DNA of 35,521 bases from an uncultured Verrucomicrobiota bacterium (lineage in GTDB: Bacteria > Verrucomicrobiota > Kiritimatiellia > RFP12 > UBA3636). The notes under the pieces were generated by a model that saw nothing but the letters and a program-made list of their open reading frames with translations, was not told the origin of the DNA and made no database searches. Shown in pieces: positions 4,650-29,480 of this stretch. Both the position numbers and the translations under genes were made by a program. The stretch is from the NCBI GenBank assembly GCA_949295265.1, contig CASFKR010000027.1, forward strand, positions 1-35,521, written 5' to 3'. How positions within the stretch are numbered: the first letter of the stretch is position 1; the number at the start of each line of letters is the position of its first letter.

Positions 4650-7600
4650 ATGAAGAGCACTCTTTTCCGCCAAAAAGGCAAACTCCCGAAACCGACGGGC
4701 GCCACGCCCCGCCGCGAGCCCTCGTTTTCGGATCTGCCGCCCGTCATCGCCAGGAAACTGCGCGCCGCCGACCGCCGCATCGTAACGGTGCTGTTCTGGC
4801 GCGGCTTTTTCACGACGCTGTGCGCGGCGCTCATCGCCATGTCCGCCATCATGGCCATCGATGCGATGGTCGTCATCTTTTCCCCGGCGGTGCGCTGGCT
4901 GCTGACGCTCAGCGGCGCGGCGGCCGTCCTGCTGACCGCCGCGCTGAGTCTCGTGCGCCCGCTCTGCGTGAAGCGCACGCCGTCGCGCCTGGCGCGGCTG
5001 CTCGAGCGCGGGCATCCCGAGATGGAGGAGCGGCTTTCGACGGTTGTGGAGCTGCTCGCCGACCCGGATGGCGTGGCGGAGGGCAGCAGGGAGCTGCTCG
5101 AGGTCGTGACGCAGGCCGCCGTCCTCGACGCCGGCGCGTTGTCGCCGCACCGCGAATTCACGATGAAGACCGTGCGCCCGAAGCTCCTCATCGCCGCGTC
5201 GATTCTCGCGCTGCTGGGCGTGCTGTACCTCTGCTGGCCGGAGTCGGTCGGCCGCCTCGTGCTGCGCGCCGTCGCGCCGCACATGGAGGTCGACAACCTG
5301 TATGCGGACAGTCTGCAGGTCGCCCCCGGCGACGCCGTCGTCCTGCAGGGGCAGCCCTTCGAGGTGGAGCTCGCCGTTCTGGGCGGCTTCCCCGGGCAGA
5401 CGTATATCCACATGCAGAGGGAAGGGCGCTCCGGCGAGAGTTCCGAGCGCATGCGCCAGATTTCCGATGAAGAAGAGGGCAAGACCTCCGTCCGCAATTT
5501 CCGCCACGGCATCGGCTCGGTCGACCACTCGTTCCGCTACCGCATTTCGTGCGGTTCCGCGCTGACCCGCGCCTACACCGTGACATGCGTGCCGGAGCCC
5601 GCGTACACCAACCTGAGCGTCTCGCTGACGTACCCGGAATACACCCGGCTCGGGACGAAGGAACTGCCGCCCGAAACCGGCGATATCTCCGCGCTGCCCG
5701 GGACGACCGCTTCGATTTCGATGCTGCCCAACCGCACCATGGCGGAGGCGGTGCTCGTGACCGACAAGCGGGAACGCGCGCCGGATACCGTAGCGCCGGA
5801 CGGCACGCTGACGTGGAACCTCGCGCTCACTGCGGAGAGCGCCGGCACGTGGTCGTTCCGCCTCGTGGACAGCCATTCGTTCACGAACAAGCCCGCCTAT
5901 TACGCCATCGAGCTGGTGCCCGACCTCGCGCCCGTCGTGAAGCTCACCGAACCCGAAAAGCGCGAATACAAGTTGCGGCCCTACGCCGCGATTCCGTTCA
6001 CATGGACCGCAACCGACGATTTCGGCATCGAACAGCCGACGCTCCAGGTGCGCGTCTCCGGCGAAGGCTGGCGCGATCTGCGGCCCGTCGCCGAGTGGAC
6101 CGAGGTGCGCCCCGGGCAGTGGGTCGGCTCCGATACGTTCCGCCTTTCGGAAGTCACGATGGGCTTCAACCGTTCGGTCCGCTTCCGCGTGAGTGCGCTC
6201 GACCGCTGTCCGGAGGAGGCGGAGGGTCCGCACCGCGGCACGTCCGAGGCCGTGGTGATTCACCTCGATGAAACCGCGCTCAGCTACCTGACCCAACAGG
6301 CGCTGGAAGAGCAGAAAGCCGTCAACAGCAGCCTCGACGGGGCGGCCATGGAGCTGCAGCGCGCTCTCGACCGCGCAAACGAAGCGCGCCAGGCGGCCCA
6401 GCAGCGTCACGAGCAGCCGACGCTCGACCGCGTTGCCGACAGCAAGAAGCACATCGGGCGCGCCGAGAAGATTGTCCGCGACATGCTCCAGTCGATGAGC
6501 GGCACGCCGCTCGAATCGCTCTCCGATGAGGCGCGCGCCCTGCTGCGCGACAAAATCGCGCCCGCTTCGGATGCCGCCGACGCCGTCGTCTTTTCCGACC
6601 CCGAGGCGCGCATTCCCGCCATCGACCGGCTGATTGACATCCTGCGCGACGCCAGGTCCGCGCTCGACGAATTCAAGGCCGAAGTGCAGGACACCGTCGA
6701 AGAAATCCAGGAGGCGGAAAAGCTCGAGGACATGGCCAACCGCGAGGAGGACCTCGCCAGGCGGCTCGAGCAGCAGATGTCGCAGGAAGACTGGAAGAAG
6801 TGGATGGAAGAGCAGCAGAAACTTCTCCAGGAAATGGACGCCATGACGGGCATGGAAGAAAACCCGCTGACCCAAACGCAGGAGGCCGCCGAGCAGCTTT
6901 CCAAGGCGGCTGAAAACCTCGCGGACCGGCAGGAAAAACTAGCCGATCTGGCGCAGCAACTGCAGGAGAATCCGCAGAGTCAGCAGGCAACCGACCAGCT
7001 CAAGGCGCAGACGCCCGGCATGAATGAGCAGGCAACGCCGCAGGACCGTCTGGCACAGGCGCAGAATCAGCTCGCGCAGGATACGGCAGCCTTCGAACAG
7101 GAGGTCGCGAACCTCCAGCAGGACCTTAATAACATGGGCGACTACCAGACCATGGCAGACGCCGCGCAGAAGTCGGATCAGGCCGCCGACATGGCACAGC
7201 AGGCTGCGCAACAGGCGCAGCAGGATGCGCAAGGCCAACCGGATGCGCAAGGCCAGCCGGACGCGCAGGGCCAGCCGGACGCGCAGCAAGGTCAGCCGGA
7301 GGCGCAGGGTCAGCAGGAGGCGCAAGGCCAGCCGGAGGCGCAAGGTCAGCCGGAGGCGCAGGGTCAGCCGGAGGCGCAAGGCCAGCCGGATGCGCAGCCG
7401 GGAGAACCGTCGCCCACGGAATCCATGATGCGCGATACCGCTCAGGCACTTCAGGATGCCGCTGCCGCGCTCCAGTCGGCCGGACAGAAACTGGGCGAAA
7501 TGGCGCAGCAGCAGCAGCAGGAGCAAAAACAGCAGCTGGCCGACGTCAAGCAGGCCATGCAGGACGCTCTCGACGCCGCACAGCAGCAGTCCGGGAATCA

Positions 7601-8018
7601 GATTCCGCCTGAAGGCATGTTCCAGGACGGCCAGCCCGACCCGAACGCCGAGCCGAAATCCGGCGATTACCAGCTGCCGCAGGGGCAGCAGACCGCCCAG
7701 CAAAAGGCGCAGGAAGCAGCCAATGCCATGAACCAGATGGCCCAGCAGCAGCGCCAGCGGGCCATGCCGCAGCAACAGCAGCCGAATCAGCAGCCCTCGC
7801 AGCAGGCCTCAGCGGAGGAAGCGATGCGCGTCGGCGATGGTGCCGCCACGACCGGAGAAGTCGATCCCACGCTGGCGGGCCGCGACCTGAACAGCGACTG
7901 GCTCAAGTCCGACTCCCATGGCGGTGCCGATCTCCTCGAAGATGCTTCCGATGACACCCCGGAAGAATACCGCGGTATCGTCAAAGATTACTTCGAATCC
8001 CTCTCCAACCAGAAGTAG
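4650..8018 (+). CDS. DUF4175-like membrane protein with coiled coil and Gln-rich tail
   Basis: A 1122-residue protein. Two membrane segments lie at about residues 48-102 and one near 174-193 (LLIAASILALLGVLYLCW). An extracytoplasmic beta-rich region follows to about residue 540. Then comes a long helical, coiled-coil-prone stretch rich in E, K, Q and A, with many QQ runs. Residues about 855-917 are a hexapeptide repeat of the type QGQPDA/QGQPEA. The C-terminus ends with an acidic patch and RGIVKDYFESL, a short motif often seen at the end of such proteins. The arrangement fits the DUF4175-like proteins encoded after VWA/BatA genes in Planctomycetes and Verrucomicrobia. Its molecular function is unknown. 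It presumably works with the VWA protein upstream. No Shine-Dalgarno is visible before the ATG; the leader is pyrimidine-rich. Confidence 0.88.
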   Translation: MKSTLFRQKGKLPKPTGATPRREPSFSDLPPVIARKLRAADRRIVTVLFWRGFFTTLCAALIAMSAIMAIDAMVVIFSPAVRWLLTLSGAAAVLLTAALSLVRPLCVKRTPSRLARLLERGHPEMEERLSTVVELLADPDGVAEGSRELLEVVTQAAVLDAGALSPHREFTMKTVRPKLLIAASILALLGVLYLCWPESVGRLVLRAVAPHMEVDNLYADSLQVAPGDAVVLQGQPFEVELAVLGGFPGQTYIHMQREGRSGESSERMRQISDEEEGKTSVRNFRHGIGSVDHSFRYRISCGSALTRAYTVTCVPEPAYTNLSVSLTYPEYTRLGTKELPPETGDISALPGTTASISMLPNRTMAEAVLVTDKRERAPDTVAPDGTLTWNLALTAESAGTWSFRLVDSHSFTNKPAYYAIELVPDLAPVVKLTEPEKREYKLRPYAAIPFTWTATDDFGIEQPTLQVRVSGEGWRDLRPVAEWTEVRPGQWVGSDTFRLSEVTMGFNRSVRFRVSALDRCPEEAEGPHRGTSEAVVIHLDETALSYLTQQALEEQKAVNSSLDGAAMELQRALDRANEARQAAQQRHEQPTLDRVADSKKHIGRAEKIVRDMLQSMSGTPLESLSDEARALLRDKIAPASDAADAVVFSDPEARIPAIDRLIDILRDARSALDEFKAEVQDTVEEIQEAEKLEDMANREEDLARRLEQQMSQEDWKKWMEEQQKLLQEMDAMTGMEENPLTQTQEAAEQLSKAAENLADRQEKLADLAQQLQENPQSQQATDQLKAQTPGMNEQATPQDRLAQAQNQLAQDTAAFEQEVANLQQDLNNMGDYQTMADAAQKSDQAADMAQQAAQQAQQDAQGQPDAQGQPDAQGQPDAQQGQPEAQGQQEAQGQPEAQGQPEAQGQPEAQGQPDAQPGEPSPTESMMRDTAQALQDAAAALQSAGQKLGEMAQQQQQEQKQQLADVKQAMQDALDAAQQQSGNQIPPEGMFQDGQPDPNAEPKSGDYQLPQGQQTAQQKAQEAANAMNQMAQQQRQRAMPQQQQPNQQPSQQASAEEAMRVGDGAATTGEVDPTLAGRDLNSDWLKSDSHGGADLLEDASDDTPEEYRGIVKDYFESLSNQK
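7222..7398 (+). repeat. In-frame 18-bp tandem repeat encoding QGQPDA/QGQPEA
   Basis: About ten imperfect copies of an 18-bp unit (CAAGGCCAGCCGGATGCG and variants) lie within the DUF4175-like gene, with one 3-bp slip (extra CAG near 7285). All changes keep the frame. The product is a flexible Gln/Pro/Ala linker. Such tracts vary in length by slippage. Confidence 0.9.
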
Positions 8019-8029
8019 CCCCTTGTGGT

Positions 8030-8145
8030 TCCGGGCGGCGTACCTCAGGCGGTGGACGGCAATCTGCCGCCTGAGATACCGCCGACCGGCCATGGGCTCT
8101 GGCTCATGAGTCGCCCCGCCCACTCAGAGGGCGGGGCGGGTGCGC
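8030..8145 (+). repeat. Module A copy 1 (hairpin chain) downstream of the DUF4175-like gene
   Basis: Begins 12 bp after the stop codon. It contains a stem with perfect 9-bp arms CTCAGGCGG (8044-8052) and CCGCCTGAG (8067-8075), then GACCGGCC, the palindrome CTCATGAG, and a GC hairpin CCCCGCCC...GGGCGGGG (8116-8138). The same order of elements recurs at four other loci in the window. It could act as a transcript end in the convergent space between this gene and araD, but no T-tract is present. Confidence 0.85.
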
Positions 8146-8164: not shown

Positions 8165-8281
8165 ACAGGACGTACAGGACGTACAGGACGGACAGGATGA
8201 ACAGGATGAACAGGATGAACAGGACGGACAGGACGTACAGGACGTACAGGACAAACAGGACAAACAGGACAAACAGGACAG
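8165..8281 (+). repeat. Module C array 1: thirteen 9-bp ACAGGACNN units
   Basis: Thirteen head-to-tail 9-mers with no spacers. The unit variants occur in blocks: GT, GT, GG, then three ACAGGATGA, then GG, GT, GT, then three ending AA, then AG. All six frames are open by composition, giving spurious peptides such as repeated SCxSC or QDx. It is preceded by CGCAG and followed by TTTGACGCCAC, flanks shared with arrays 2 and 3. Confidence 0.95.
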
Positions 8282-8324: not shown

Positions 8325-8440
8325 CGTGTGGCGCGGCTTCGCCGCCCTCGGAGTGGGCGGCCGACTCATGAGCGGCTGGCTTAGGCCGGTCGGTCTAACG
8401 CCGCCCGGCAGAAGAGGCGGCTTCGCCGCCCCGCTGGCCG
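8325..8440 (-). repeat. Module A copy 2, inverted, overlapping the 3' end of araD
   Basis: On the minus strand it reads GGGGCGGCGAAGCCGCCTC, TTCTGCCGG, then GACCGGCCTAAGCC, CTCATGAG and CCGCCCACTCCGAGGGCGGC. It has the same element order as the copy at 18232 but the opposite orientation. It extends into araD and forms that gene's last ~12 codons and its stop. Confidence 0.85.
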
Positions 8441-9126
8441 TAGTAGGCGGAGGGACCGTGTTTGCGCCCATAGTGTTTTTCGAGGATATGGGCGGGAATG
8501 GGGGAGAGGGCGGGGGAGAGCTGCCGGCTGAGCAGGGCCATGCGCGCAATTTCTTCGAGGGCGGCGGCATGTTCGACCGCCTGTTGCGGCGTTGTGCCCC
8601 AGGTGAAGGGACCATGATGGCGGCACAGGACGCCGGGAAAACAGAGCGGGTCGAAATGGCGCGCCCGGAAAGTCTCCACGATGACGCGGCCCGTGTTCAG
8701 CTCGTAGTCGGTTCGGGTCTCTTCCGGGGTGAGGGCACGGGCGCAGGGAACGGCGCCGTGGAAAAGATCGGCATGCGTCGTCCCGTAGCAGGGAATATCG
8801 AGCCCAGCCTGTGCCCAGGCGGTGGCATAGGTGCTGTGGGTGTGGACGATGCCGCCCAGTTCCGGGAAGGACCGGTAGAGCGCCAGATGCGTCGGTGTAT
8901 CGGAGGAGGGACGCAGCGGACCGGAAAGCGGCTCGCCGGTGGAAAGCCGCACCACGGCCATGCATTCCGGCGTGAGCGCCTCCGCCGGAACGCCGGAAGG
9001 CTTGATGATGACCCGGTCCTGTGCGCGGTCGACGGCGGATACATTGCCCCAGGTGAGAATGACGAGGCCCAGCCGGTGAAGCTGGAGATTCGCCTCGCAG
9101 ACGAGGGCTTGCAGCGATGCGTCCAT
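8395..9126 (-). CDS. araD: L-ribulose-5-phosphate 4-epimerase
   Basis: A 243-residue class II aldolase-family epimerase that converts L-ribulose 5-phosphate to D-xylulose 5-phosphate, the last step of L-arabinose entry into the pentose phosphate pathway. The zinc ligands sit where they do in the E. coli enzyme: H95 and H97 in VHTHS, and H171 in RHHGPFTWG. D76 in SSDTPTH is also conserved. The family normally ends with the motif seen here, KHGPSAYYGQ. A further twelve residues (RGGEAASSAGRR) follow, and their DNA belongs to dispersed module A. A GGAGA Shine-Dalgarno precedes the ATG. It is the last gene of araB-araA-araD, 27 bp after araA. Confidence 0.96.
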   Translation of the reverse strand: MDASLQALVCEANLQLHRLGLVILTWGNVSAVDRAQDRVIIKPSGVPAEALTPECMAVVRLSTGEPLSGPLRPSSDTPTHLALYRSFPELGGIVHTHSTYATAWAQAGLDIPCYGTTHADLFHGAVPCARALTPEETRTDYELNTGRVIVETFRARHFDPLCFPGVLCRHHGPFTWGTTPQQAVEHAAALEEIARMALLSRQLSPALSPIPAHILEKHYGRKHGPSAYYGQRGGEAASSAGRR

Positions 9127-12480: not shown

Positions 12481-12569
12481 GTGGCGGCTACCGAGAACAT
12501 GATGGTGAGAGAATCGGAATTATCGGAATAATCGGAAGTATCGGGAGCGCGTGGGCTCGGGCAGCGCAG

Positions 12570-12623
12570 ACAGGACGGACAGGACGGACACGACGAACAC
12601 GACGAACAGGACGAACAGGACGG
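12570..12623 (+). repeat. Module C array 2: six 9-bp units
   Basis: Six units (ACAGGACGG twice, ACACGACGA twice, ACAGGACGA, ACAGGACGG). The left flank CGCAG and right flank GGCTTGACGCCACACC match the other arrays, so the array sits in a conserved frame whose internal copy number differs (13, 6 and 5). Confidence 0.92.
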
Positions 12624-16925: not shown

Positions 16926-18245
16926 ATGAGCGATGGCCTAATTCTTGTCTTCTTCCTGCAAATTGTTCTCATTGCCCTCAATGCCGTGTTCGCCAGTGCG
17001 GAAATTGCCGTTCTTTCGCTGAATGCGACAAAACTCGAGCGCATGGCCGGAGACGGGGATAAGCGCGCAATCCGCTTGCAACGGCTCATGAAGGAGCCCG
17101 CGCGCTTTCTGGCGACCATTCAGGTGGCGATTACGCTGTCCGGCTTTCTCGGAAGTGCCTTCGCCGCCGATAACTTTTCCGATCCGCTGGTGGATTGGGT
17201 TCTGAGCCTCGGTGTTCATCTGCCGCGCGCCACGCTGGACACCATCGCGGTGATTCTCATCACGCTGATTCTTTCGTACGTGACGCTGATTTTCGGCGAG
17301 CTGGTGCCCAAGCGCATCGCCATGCGCCGCTCCGAGGCGATCGCCATGGGCATTTCCGGTATTGTCAGCGGGATTTCCATCGTTTTCAAGCCGCTGGTCT
17401 GGCTCCTGTCGGTGTCGACCAATCTGGTGCTGCGCCTCTTCGGCATCCGTCCCGATGAGGCGGAGGAAAAGGTCACGGAGGAGGAAATCCGCATGCTCGT
17501 GGATGCCGGCAGCGAAAAGGGCGCCATCAACCGGCAGGAAAAGGAATTCATTCAGAACGTGTTTGAATTCAACGACACGACCGCCGGAGAACTGGCTACG
17601 CACCGGACCGAAGTCGAGATTCTCTGGATGAAGGACGATGAGGCGGCATGGGAAAAGACCATCCTCGACAGTCCGCATGCCCTGTACCCGGTGTGCGACG
17701 GTTCGCCGGACGACGTCGTGGGCGTTCTCAATGCAAAGGAGTATTTCCGGCTGCCGGACAAATCGCGTGCGTCGGTGCTTTCCGCTGCCGTGCATCCTGC
17801 GTATTTTGTGCCGAAAACGCTCAAGGCGGACGTCCTGTTCCGCAATCTGAAGAGCCACCACACCTCTATGGCCATCGTACTGGATGATTTTGCGGGGATG
17901 GTCGGCGTGGTCACGATGAACGACCTGCTGGAAGAACTGGTGGGCGATCTGGGTGATGTTTTTCCGGATCAGAACAACACGCGCATCGAGCCGCGGGGCG
18001 AAAATCAGTGGGCCGTTTTCGGTAATGTGGACCTGGAGACGCTCTCGGAAGCCATTCAGCACCCGATTGCCTCGGAGGAAGACGTGCATTACTTCTCCGG
18101 CTATGTTTTTCATGAGTGGGGGCAGATTCCGGACGACGGTCTGTACCCGGATGAAGTCCGGTGTGGGAATCTCCTGATTCGCAATATCCGCATCGAGAAT
18201 CACCAGATCGTCGCCGCCGATTTACGCTGGGACGGGGCGGCGTAG
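16926..18245 (+). CDS. CNNM/CorC (HlyC)-type transporter with DUF21, CBS and CorC domains
   Basis: A 439-residue membrane protein. The DUF21/CNNM domain spans about residues 1-190 with four hydrophobic segments and the motifs ASAEIAVLSLN, TLSGFLGSA and FGELVPKRIAM. A CBS pair follows at about 200-335 (INRQEKEFIQNVFEF, SMAIVLDDFAGMVGVVT) and a CorC_HlyC domain lies at about 350-435. Relatives are linked to Mg2+/Co2+ export or cation homeostasis; the 'haemolysin' label of some homologues is historical. The stop codon at 18243-18245 lies inside the first bases of module A, so the last residues (WDGAA) come from repeat DNA. Confidence 0.93.
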   Translation: MSDGLILVFFLQIVLIALNAVFASAEIAVLSLNATKLERMAGDGDKRAIRLQRLMKEPARFLATIQVAITLSGFLGSAFAADNFSDPLVDWVLSLGVHLPRATLDTIAVILITLILSYVTLIFGELVPKRIAMRRSEAIAMGISGIVSGISIVFKPLVWLLSVSTNLVLRLFGIRPDEAEEKVTEEEIRMLVDAGSEKGAINRQEKEFIQNVFEFNDTTAGELATHRTEVEILWMKDDEAAWEKTILDSPHALYPVCDGSPDDVVGVLNAKEYFRLPDKSRASVLSAAVHPAYFVPKTLKADVLFRNLKSHHTSMAIVLDDFAGMVGVVTMNDLLEELVGDLGDVFPDQNNTRIEPRGENQWAVFGNVDLETLSEAIQHPIASEEDVHYFSGYVFHEWGQIPDDGLYPDEVRCGNLLIRNIRIENHQIVAADLRWDGAA

Positions 18246-18388
18246 CCGCCTCTTCTGCCGGTCGGGGCGGGCGGCAAACTGCCGCCTGTGGTGCCGGTCG
18301 GCGTTCTCAGGCGGTGGATCACCGCCGACCGGCCTCGGCCAGCGGCTCATGAGTCGGCCCGCCCACTCCGAGGGCGGGGCGGGTGTGC
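18232..18388 (+). repeat. Module A copy 3, starting inside the CorC-like gene
   Basis: Starts at GGGGCGGCGTAGCCGCCTC, continues TTCTGCCGGTCGG, then the stem CAGGCGGTG...CACCGCC, GACCGGCCTCGGCC, CTCATGAG, and CCCGCCCACTCCGAGGGCGG. Its first 28 bp match the inverted copy at the end of araD at nearly every position. The gap 18246-18614 holds only modules A, C and short flanks. Confidence 0.88.
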
Positions 18389-18449
18389 CGCACACCCGTG
18401 CCCCCAGTTGCCCCAGAAGCGCAGCGTGGCACAGGTGTGGCGGCAAGCC

Positions 18450-18494
18450 GTCCTGTTCGTCCTGTCCGTCTTGTTCGTCCTGTACGTCCTGTCT
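18450..18494 (-). repeat. Module C array 3, inverted: five 9-bp units
   Basis: Five GTCCTGTNC-type units (reverse of ACAGGACNN). The flanks, read on the minus strand, are CGCAGACAGGAC on one side and GGCTTGCCGCCACACC on the other, as in arrays 1 and 2 but in the opposite orientation. Confidence 0.92.
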
Positions 18495-22895: not shown

Positions 22896-23830
22896 TGGCC
22901 GCCTCTTCTCTTCCCACGTTCATGCGGTGGCTCCCTCCCCGGACCACCGCGACCATCAACCGTTGCGAATTCGTTTGCCACGGCCGGATGGATGGTTTTA
23001 TTGCCGGACGCCACCGGAGCGCCAAAAAGGGCGCATCGGTCGAATTTACGGATTACCGCCAATATCTCCCGGGCGACGACATCAAGCACATCGACTGGAA
23101 GGTGTACGGCCGGAAAGACCGCTATTACATCAAGCAGACCATGGCGGAGACGAATGTCCGCTTCATGATCTGCCTGGATTGCTCGGGTTCCATGGCGTAC
23201 CGGGGCGAATCCGCCGTCGAGTTCGAGGGGCGGCGTCTTTCCAAGATGGAGTACGCCAAGTATCTGGCGGCTGGGCTCGCCTCGCTCTTTCTCAGTCAGC
23301 AGGATGCCGTCGGGCTCGCCCTGTTCGATACGCACGTCCGGGAGTTTCTCCCCGCGAAATCGGGTAAAGGGCAGCTCTTTAACGTGCTCCGTTTCATCGA
23401 GGATGCGCGCACGGGCGGCGAGACGGAGCTCGCGCCCATTTTCGACGAAATCGCCGAGCGTCTTCCCAAGCGCAGCGTCGTGATCATCATCAGCGATCTG
23501 TTTGGTGACACGCGGAATCTGCTCAAATCCTTCCAGCATATCAACTACCGGCACCACGAAATGGTCGTCCTTCACACGATGGCGGAGGAGGAACTCCATT
23601 TTCCGTTCGAATCCTTCGTCCATTTCAAGGATCTCGAATCGCCGCTGGAACTGGAGCTCAGTCCGGAATCGGTGCGCGCGGATTACCTTTCCCGCGTCCA
23701 GGCGTTCATCAAAATGCTCACAGACGGATGCGGCAGCATGCGCGCCGATTACGTTCCCCTGAGTACAGCCAAACCCTTCGAAAAGAGTTTGACCGAGTAT
23801 CTCGCCCGCCGCGCCACCGGCATCGGCTAA
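22895..23830 (+). CDS. DUF58 domain protein with VWA-like fold
   Basis: A 311-residue protein. The DUF58 signature GASVEFTDYRQYLPGDD, IKHIDWKVYGR, DRYYIKQ occupies about residues 46-80. It is followed by a VWA-like region with an intact MIDAS-type motif CLDCSGSM (about residues 94-101). No membrane helix is obvious, unlike longer DUF58 proteins. The start overlaps the stop of the FHA-MoxR gene (TGATG), implying translational coupling and a working pair. The usual third and fourth partners (VWA and DUF4175-like) lie at 1288-8018 instead of directly downstream. Confidence 0.94.
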
Positions 23831-23832
23831 CT

Positions 23833-24010
23833 GGGCGGGGCGGCGGTGCCGCCTTTCTGCCGGTCGGCGTTAACCGACCGGCCTTGGCCAGCGGCTGATG
23901 AGTCGACCCGCCCACTCCGAGGGCGGGGCGGGGCGGCGGTGCCGCCTTTCTGCCGGTCGGCATCTCAGGCGGTGGATCACCGCCCGACCGGCCTTGGCCA
24001 GCGGCGGGAC
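23833..24010 (+). repeat. Module A copies 4 and 5 in tandem after the DUF58 gene
   Basis: Two units begin 2 bp after the DUF58 stop. Unit 1 has the short centre CCGGTCGGCGTTAACCGACC (8-bp stem). Unit 2 has the long centre, in which GGCGGTG-GAT-CACCGCC is inserted within the outer CCGGTCGG/CGACCGG stem. Each carries GGCCTTGGCC; unit 1 ends with CCCGCCCACTCCGAGGGCGG. The gap 23831-24452 contains only modules A, C, D and B. Confidence 0.9.
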
Positions 24011-24059: not shown

Positions 24060-24095
24060 CTCCTGTACGTCCTGTTCGTCCTGTTCGTCCTGTAC
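24060..24095 (-). repeat. Module C array 4, inverted: four 9-bp units
   Basis: CTCCTGTAC, GTCCTGTTC twice, GTCCTGTAC. Unlike arrays 1-3, the GGCTTGACGCCAC flank is missing here, so this may be a truncated copy. Confidence 0.85.
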
Positions 24096-24134: not shown

Positions 24135-24251
24135 GATGGGGCCACTGGGGCCACTGGGGCTACTGGGGCCACTGGGGTCACTGAGGCTGCTGGGGCTACT
24201 GGGGCCACTGGGGGCACTGGGGCCACTGGGGTCACTGAGGTTGCTGGGAGT
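24135..24251 (+). repeat. Module D array: thirteen 9-bp ACTGGGGCN units with a 54-bp higher-order repeat
   Basis: After one diverged unit, 24144-24197 and 24198-24251 are two six-unit blocks with matching order (GGCC, GGCT or GGGC, GGCC, GGTC, GAGG, GCTGGG). G-runs recur every 9 bp with 5-base loops, which gives G-quadruplex potential on the plus strand. Translation gives collagen-like GPLGPL or GPSGPS strings, which I regard as spurious. Confidence 0.93.
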
Positions 24252-29055: not shown

Positions 29056-29365
29056 TGCGGGCGGCAAACTGCCGCCTGTGGTGCCGGTCGGCATCTCAGG
29101 CGGTGGATCACCGCCCGACAGGCCTTAGCCAGCGGCTCATGAGTCGGCCCGCCCACTCCGAGGGCGGGGCGGGGCGGCGGTGCCGCCTTTCTGCCGGTCG
29201 GCATCTCAGGCGGTGGATCACCGCCCGACCGGCCTTGGCCAGCGGCTCGACCCGCCCACTCCGAGGGCGGGGCGGCGGTGCCACCTTTCTGCCGGTCGGC
29301 GTTAACCGACCGGCCTTGGCCAGCGGCTGATGAGTCGGCCCGCCCACTCCGAGGGCGGGGCGGGC
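29056..29365 (+). repeat. Module A: three tandem units
   Basis: Units at about 29056-29175, 29176-29278 and 29279-29365. The first two have the long centre with the GGCGGTG/CACCGCC inner hairpin. The third has the short GCGTTAACC centre. Each ends with CCCGCCCACTCCGAGGGCGG. The middle unit lacks CTCATGAG, and the third has CTGATGAG instead. This is the longest array of the family here and the best place to define its unit. Confidence 0.92.
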
Positions 29366-29389: not shown

Positions 29390-29480
29390 CCGCCACTGGG
29401 CTACTGGGGCCACTGGGGCTACTGGGGGAACGGGTGTGCCTTTTGATGGGGCCACTGGGCAACTGGGGCTATTGGGAGTG
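29390..29480 (+). repeat. Module D array 2
   Basis: Two short runs of ACTGGGGCN units (29393-29430 and 29447-29480) split by GGAACGGGTGTGCCTTTTG. Several GGGG runs have 5-base spacing. From 29486 to 29536 small hairpins follow (CCGG..CCGG, GGCC..GGCC, CGGGG..CCCCG) up to the dehydrogenase stop. Confidence 0.8.

Follow-up and report, generated by a model that had tools for sequence, protein, structure and literature searches.

A repeat of nested hairpins beside stop codons that looks like a new REP/BIME-like family in an uncultured Verrucomicrobiota bacterium

The stretch of DNA analysed here (35,521 nucleotides, hereafter the window) is contig C27 of a 2.82-Mb genome that is assembled in 199 contigs and 91.5% complete. 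It carries eight copies of a short repeat, which we call Module A (Table 1), all of them at or near the positions at which the initial annotation had placed them. The unit is about 100 bases long, with its parts in this order: a first hairpin (H1), a linker, a second hairpin (H2), a middle segment and a third hairpin (H3). H1 is a GC hairpin of variable sequence, with stems GGCGGC, GGGGGC, GCGGGG or GGCAGC and loops of 3-5 nt; it is followed by TTTC or TTTTC at best, often by TGTGG or TGGTGA, and the linker ends in TG upstream of H2. In some copies the H2 stem, CCGGTCGG...CCGACCGG, encloses no more than a short loop, CGTTAGA or CGTTAAC; in others it holds a cassette hairpin (CTTCTCAGGCGGTGGATCACCGC), which may also be reversed, or a longer nested form. 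The middle segment is centred on GCTGATGAGTCGG and runs into H3 through (G)TCGG, this pre-H3 segment reading GAGTCGG in most copies and GCGTCGG in a minority. H3 (for example CCGCCC-ACTCCGA-GGGCGG) always has the loop ACTCCGA, which together with GATGAGTC in the middle segment forms the constant part of the unit. The motifs by which the repeat had been recognised, CCGGTCGG/CGACCGG, GGCGGTG/CACCGCC and CCCGCCC-ACTCCGA-GGGCGGG, are all present, the last in five exact copies. The hairpins had thus been seen, but the variable H1 and the linker upstream of the outer stem had been missed, and GGCCTTGGCC and CTCATGAG, which had been counted as parts of the unit, occur in four copies each only.

Units in arrays mostly stand in direct, not alternating, orientation, and clusters of several units with linkers include the triple of the window, an array on contig C28 and chains of half-units. 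At L093:2253-2539, four 72-nt units are arrayed that carry an H1-type hairpin instead of H3 in all but the last. Two nine-base minisatellites are also found in the neighbourhood of Module A. One, CAGGACGNA, lies at window positions 8165-8279, 12569-12623, 18449-18492 and 24061-24095, often directly 3' of Module A, and has 198 pattern matches in 314 kb; the other, ACTGGGGCN, is intergenic and adjoins Module A at 24137-24237 and 29392-29427, with 107 pattern matches in the same length.

Table 1. Module A copies and their parts in the window, and loci of Module R
Position	Strand	Feature	Basis
8028..8135	+	Unit with nested (double) inner hairpin in H2; begins 9 nt past the TAG stop (8016-8018) of gene 4650-8018 (+)	CM match, 63.4 bits; position
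8341..8411	-	Unit, H2 loop empty (CGTTAGA); its TAG (8395-8397) serves as stop codon for the Aldolase_II gene 8395-9126 (-)	CM match, 89.1 bits; ortholog comparison
8416..8430	-	H1 hairpin GGCGGC-GAA-GCCGCC of the 8341-8411 copy, translated within the C-terminal tail GGEAASSAGRR	Sequence read directly
18236..18286	+	Two H1-type hairpins: GGCGGC-GTA-GCCGCC (18236-18250) and GGCGGC-AAACT-GCCGCC (18270-18286)	Sequence read directly
18291..18378	+	H2 with inner cassette (CGTTCTCAGGCGGTGGATCACCGC), middle segment, H3	CM match, 80.2 bits
23857..23927	+	Unit with empty H2 loop CGTTAAC, 26 nt past a TAA stop (23828-23830), H1 between	CM match, 90.8 bits
23950..24027	+	H1-linker, then H2 with inner cassette (23950..24005); without H3 (3'-truncated copy)	BLAST, 100% over 55 nt; CM match weak (34.2 bits)
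29081..29168	+	Triple, first unit: H2 with inner cassette, middle CTCATGAG, H3; H1 GGCGGCAAACTGCCGCC adjoins upstream	CM match, 78.5 bits
29191..29271	+	Triple, second unit: H2 with inner cassette, shortened middle segment, H3	CM match, 65.5 bits
29289..29359	+	Triple, third unit: H2 with empty loop CGTTAAC, middle CTGATGAG, H3	CM match, 92.0 bits
L042:13030-13230		Module R	
L042:13970-14340		Module R	
L085:2892-4130		Module R	

Module A is abundant in its own genome and appears to be confined to it. A covariance model (CM) covering H2, the middle segment and H3 (71 positions, 14 pairs) gave 71 matches in the 485 kb of the genome that were scanned, and BLAST with a 110-base query gave 60 matches in this genome and short H1-type matches only in relatives. 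Repeating the CM search with strict filters and 46 candidates scored per genome returned no match in 94 relatives; under the same filters the own genome yields 45, which is a lower bound. The cassette pattern, present here, was found in 0 of the 161 other genomes of the order that were searched, and two exact patterns found no match in viral contigs. The initial annotation had named scarcity elsewhere in the genome and membership of an already described family as arguments against its proposal; the counts above speak against the former, and an Rfam search of the window returned no family above the gathering threshold. The flanks of dispersed copies are unrelated to one another, and among the flanks of all copies listed we saw neither shared termini (TIRs) nor target duplications. 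Several copies lie at or near contig ends (L094:1-56, L097:1-64, L056:86-157 and L096:10989-11059). Given that the assembly breaks at the repeat, the true copy number is probably higher.

The placement of the copies is far from random. Using our own gene calls, which come from a codon/hexamer model seeded on Pfam-supported genes and are not an annotation, we found a stop codon on the same strand, -65 to +60 nt from H2, in 28 of 55 clusters, with H1 then beginning at the stop or a few bases from it; random intergenic placement puts 3.5 ± 1.8 clusters at such a stop, with a maximum of 11 in 1000 trials. The 5' side of the element faces the stop 26 times and the 3' side 4 times, and only 5 of the 68 copies analysed overlap a gene by more than 20 nt. 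To the earlier statement that most copies lie within tens of bases of a stop, the triple at 29056-29365 is an exception: it is antisense, 188 nt from the start of one gene and 181 nt from the stop of the next. The stops themselves are biased as well. TAG is used at 18 of 26 sense copies compared with 37 of 275 other genes (13%; p = 2e-9), and at 13 of 21 (p = 1.5e-6) once the five stops that are supplied by, or lie within, the element are dropped. The window stops involved are 8016-8018, 8395-8397 and 18243-18245; the last belongs to the gene at 16926-18245 and overlaps the loop of the H1-type hairpin at 18236-18250. Copies away from stops have no TAG preceding H1, and TAG is thus not simply part of the element, which rules out a GTAG tag that the element itself supplies. 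Our favoured guess is that the TAG bias reflects a target preference.

Whether elements have arrived at these sites can be judged by comparing the ends of orthologous proteins. In 12 relatives, Aldolase_II orthologs mostly stop after ...AYYGQ(K/R), at or a few residues from position 233, whereas the protein of the window reads ...AYYGQR GGEAASSAGRR before its stop. H1, the linker and the left H2 arm encode the additional tail, and translation ends at the TAG in the H2 loop; this copy, then, overlaps the 3' end of the gene and supplies its stop codon, contrary to the initial claim that copies are always intergenic. Similarly, orthologs of an RluD-type gene (L058 7938-9029) usually end in ...LLAALR.. 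and a stop, whereas here the protein continues with element-encoded residues (AAAATSSAGRLPQ...; up to the stop, AAAATSSAGRLPQAVNHRRPAPVGGT). A third gene (L049 2317-3864) bears the tail GGEAPFSAGRR, and C-terminal tail peptides of this kind are predicted here (for example ...AYYGQRGGEAASSAGRR). For the CNNM/CorC gene at 16926-18245, the orthologs are too divergent to place the ancestral end. At the level of genes, the two ortholog comparisons are evidence that the element arrived at, and overwrote, existing stop codons. The earlier proposal of a mobilised element thus gains from two sides, the unrelated flanks and the two genes in which the element begins exactly at the ancestral protein end.

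Taken together, we consider it probable that Module A belongs to the REP/BIME kind of mobile repeat, forms hairpins and, being non-autonomous, is dispersed as single-stranded DNA by a Y1 transposase acting in trans. Units would disperse singly, as single-stranded hairpins recognised by a Y1 (HUH) transposase, and would then multiply by tandem duplication. That we found no GTAG tag or target-site signature counts against this explanation. Once settled, sense copies are expected to form a very stable mRNA structure some 0-15 nt from the stop codon, and by analogy with REPs of E. coli, this hairpin would most likely slow termination and protect the 3' end. Within about 15 nt of the stop, E. coli REPs are reported to cause ribosome stalling and lower translation (PMC12306157), and the same may hold here.

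The best candidate for the transposase is the product of the only Y1 (HUH) transposase gene that we found (G000:C12:28291-28743; P0001), a protein of 151 aa that scores above the cut-off for PF01797. It is of the IS200 type (NF033573, 64 bits against a cut-off of 55; HUH motif MPDHVH), resembles the solved IS200-type transposase 2xm3, is 53% identical to a protein of Oligosphaera ethanolica, and reaches only 24 bits against REP_Tyr_transpos (cut-off 80). The initial annotation had proposed looking for a TnpA-REP-like gene; the search turned up no RAYT or RAYT fragment in this 91.5% complete genome, the best NF047646 score being 23.9 bits against a cut-off of 80 and PF01797 detecting nothing besides the IS200-type gene. 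Three cassette-type hairpins of like orientation accompany tnpA: one ~20 nt past its stop, one ~123 nt upstream of its start and one more within 610 nt. One of the flanking hairpins is nearly identical to the window cassette and one is decayed; the upstream hairpin and the window cassette have TCGGCATCTCAGGCGGT..ACCGCCCG in common and differ in a compensatory change of a G-C to an A-T pair. These relatives of the cassette on both sides of the gene make TnpA the best, if unproven, mobiliser. Since tnpA is single-copy, the ends of the IS cannot be defined.

Two features of the same neighbourhood count against a role for TnpA. A full Module A unit is absent from the part of the tnpA contig that was examined, and the nearest repeats belong to a different three-hairpin family, Module R (CGACTCCGGAGGAGTCG / CCTCGGGAT..ATCCCGAGG / CGACCCTGAAGGGGTCG, with linker TATGCTTAA), which lies on both sides of the gene. 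In Oligosphaera ethanolica, a repeat built on the same plan, but with different stems and the linker TATGCATAA, flanks the homologous tnpA, so that Module R, and not Module A, may be the natural partner of TnpA; the two possibly form a second transposase-repeat pair conserved across distant bacteria. There is somewhat less than an even chance that Module A is the same kind of element but owes its mobility to a true RAYT that was lost or is missing from the assembly (91.5%, 199 contigs), TnpA being unrelated to it. Y1_Tnp proteins occur in 38 of 59 relatives, many of them long and RAYT-like and several encoded within hairpin chains, which argues for such a history, whereas the lack of any RAYT fragment in the own genome, and the position of the closest non-Module-A relatives of the cassette around the IS200-type gene, argue against it. 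TnpA may act on both Module R and the cassette and carry Module A along as a passenger through the latter, or the true RAYT may be lost or unassembled. In the relatives L123, L127, L132, L135 and L037, the RAYT-like Y1 genes lie within lineage-specific chains of GC hairpins (for example GAAGCGACAAGAGTGTCGCTTC...GAAGCGGCGCTCCCGCCGCTTC), and each relative seems to own a separate hairpin-chain family. A bolder form of the preferred reading, in which a family of nested hairpins targets TAG stops, inserts over the stop and replaces it with the TAG of its own loop, leaving short stereotyped tails (GGEAASSAGRR, for instance) on proteins of the host, while the lone IS200-type TnpA acts in trans on a cassette able to jump in and out of a larger hairpin, we regard as doubtful.

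Base pairing is well kept in Module A. Among 41 aligned copies, 98.3% of the cells in the two stems are paired, and double changes number 11 compared with 1.2 in shuffles and 0-3 in slid controls; the compensatory changes for which the initial annotation had suggested a test are thus present. In a larger set of copies, whole H3 stems swap around the constant loop (CCGCCC/GGGCGG, CCGGGC/GCCCGG, CCGGCC/GGCCGG and GCCGTC/GACGGC), and H1 stems swap likewise, although for H1 this is descriptive only, perfect pairing having been a selection criterion. The 310-base stretch with the triple folds better than every dinucleotide shuffle (z of -5.3 as RNA and -6.5 as DNA). Two further structures were considered and rejected. 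CTGATGAG resembles a hammerhead, but the strands preceding CUGAUGA and following GAA pair with each other and the three-way topology is absent; a pseudoknot that would join GAGU of the middle segment to ACUC of the H3 loop is unsupported, as GAGTC becomes GCGTC in many copies and the loop stays constant.

The kept pairing may reflect selection on structure, or template switching within DNA hairpins that needs neither selection nor a transposase. The latter has to be taken seriously because cassettes occur reversed and the middle loop is found flipped (CCAGCGG and CCGCTGG). In H2, the empty loop (C)GTTAG(A) is replaced by a 22-nt cassette, which also occurs reversed within the same outer stem. 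Given that the reversed state equals an inversion of the whole H2 but for one base, one inversion would account for it no less well than a second insertion. The idea of a cassette inserted in a stem holds in so far as the cassette is polymorphic, present in some H2 stems and absent from others; the junctions, in contrast, show a replaced loop and possibly an inverted H2 hairpin, and no clean insertion. A relative of the cassette (D-type) outside Module A, at L095:5023-5090, consists of tandem GGCGGTGGTTCACCCATCACA repeats that close into a hairpin.

These rearrangements also bear on an origin without any transposase, the repeats spreading through slippage, template switching and gene conversion among GC-rich hairpins, with the location at stops due to purifying selection that removed insertions elsewhere. 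Tandem chains with partial units look slippage-like (the C28 array, the triples and half-stems repeated without a closing arm), and hairpin template switching predicts the observed presence of cassettes and of the middle GCC-AGC-GGC/GCC-GCT-GGC loop in either orientation. Nevertheless, a 100-base unit at tens of loci with unrelated flanks is beyond slippage, and selection alone leaves the few-base distance of the first hairpin from the stop and the orientation bias unaccounted for; we consider this origin unlikely. It is distinctly unlikely that Module A is a conserved functional RNA, a 3'-UTR terminator or regulator multiplied by selection and not mobile: sense copies do lie at gene ends, TTTC/TTTTC often follows the GC hairpin H1, and the H3 loop ACTCCGA and GATGAGTC of the middle segment are constant, but about half of the clusters, including the triple of the window, lie off same-strand gene ends, the T-runs are short, the family is absent from the searched genomes of relatives, and protein extension by the elements looks like a by-product of insertion and not like terminator design. 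A promoter and terminator scan stayed at background and listed none of the Module A hairpins, and an intrinsic terminator calls for a strong U-tract after its GC hairpin, of which the H1 linkers offer TTTC/TTTTC at best.

A mobile repeat of the REP/BIME kind, our preferred reading, can be set against several known systems. BOX elements of Streptococcus pneumoniae are modular composite repeats with an optional inner module and conserved secondary structure, and Module A is similarly modular with an optional inner module; no sequence relation is claimed. Like the REP/BIME elements of E. coli, Pseudomonas and Stenotrophomonas, Module A consists of short palindromic units in many, mostly intergenic, copies, often just 3' of stop codons and in mosaic multi-unit arrays, and RAYT-like genes lie inside hairpin chains in relatives of its host. 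REPs are defined by a GTAG/GTGG tetranucleotide 0-2 nt 5' of the hairpin (PMC6006769, PMC3733652), and the cognate RAYT/TnpA-REP gene is flanked by its REP repeat (PMC2817692). Module A, in contrast, has no GTAG/GTGG by its hairpins, (N)TAG preceding H1 only as the stop of a gene; its unit unites three unlike hairpins and a cassette that is nested and can be swapped, a search for a RAYT in its genome found none, and the stops at its insertion sites are strongly TAG-biased. The initial judgement that the repeat resembles REP/BIME in position and not in sequence is supported. Palindromic and dispersed repeats tagged with GTAG or CGTC, to which Module A is alike in these two respects, have been described by Di Nocera, including in members of the PVC superphylum (PMC3733652); unlike in the CGTC-tagged repeats, CGTC precedes H3 in a minority of Module A copies (AGTC in most) and there is no family-wide tag. 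As in non-autonomous derivatives of IS200/IS605 (PATE-type, stem-loop remnants), a single tnpA is flanked by hairpins of the cassette family in direct orientation, but full Module A has no recognisable left and right IS ends and the cassette is one component only. Without the GTAG tag and a repeat-flanked RAYT, Module A is set apart from the described families despite its likeness to REP/BIME, and it appears to be a new family marked by unusual nesting and by its targeting of stop codons.

Few bacterial repeats are commoner than those of the REP type, whose choice of sites is poorly understood. A tagless family that sits a few bases from stops, prefers TAG and has visibly rewritten C-termini makes both site choice and its cost directly testable. 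Similarly, nested hairpins that flip and yet keep their pairing provide a natural test of whether covariation arises from selection or from hairpin repair at the level of DNA. If the lone IS200-type TnpA does move the cassette, the system would occupy an intermediate place, with ordinary IS200 elements on one side and domesticated RAYT-REP systems on the other.
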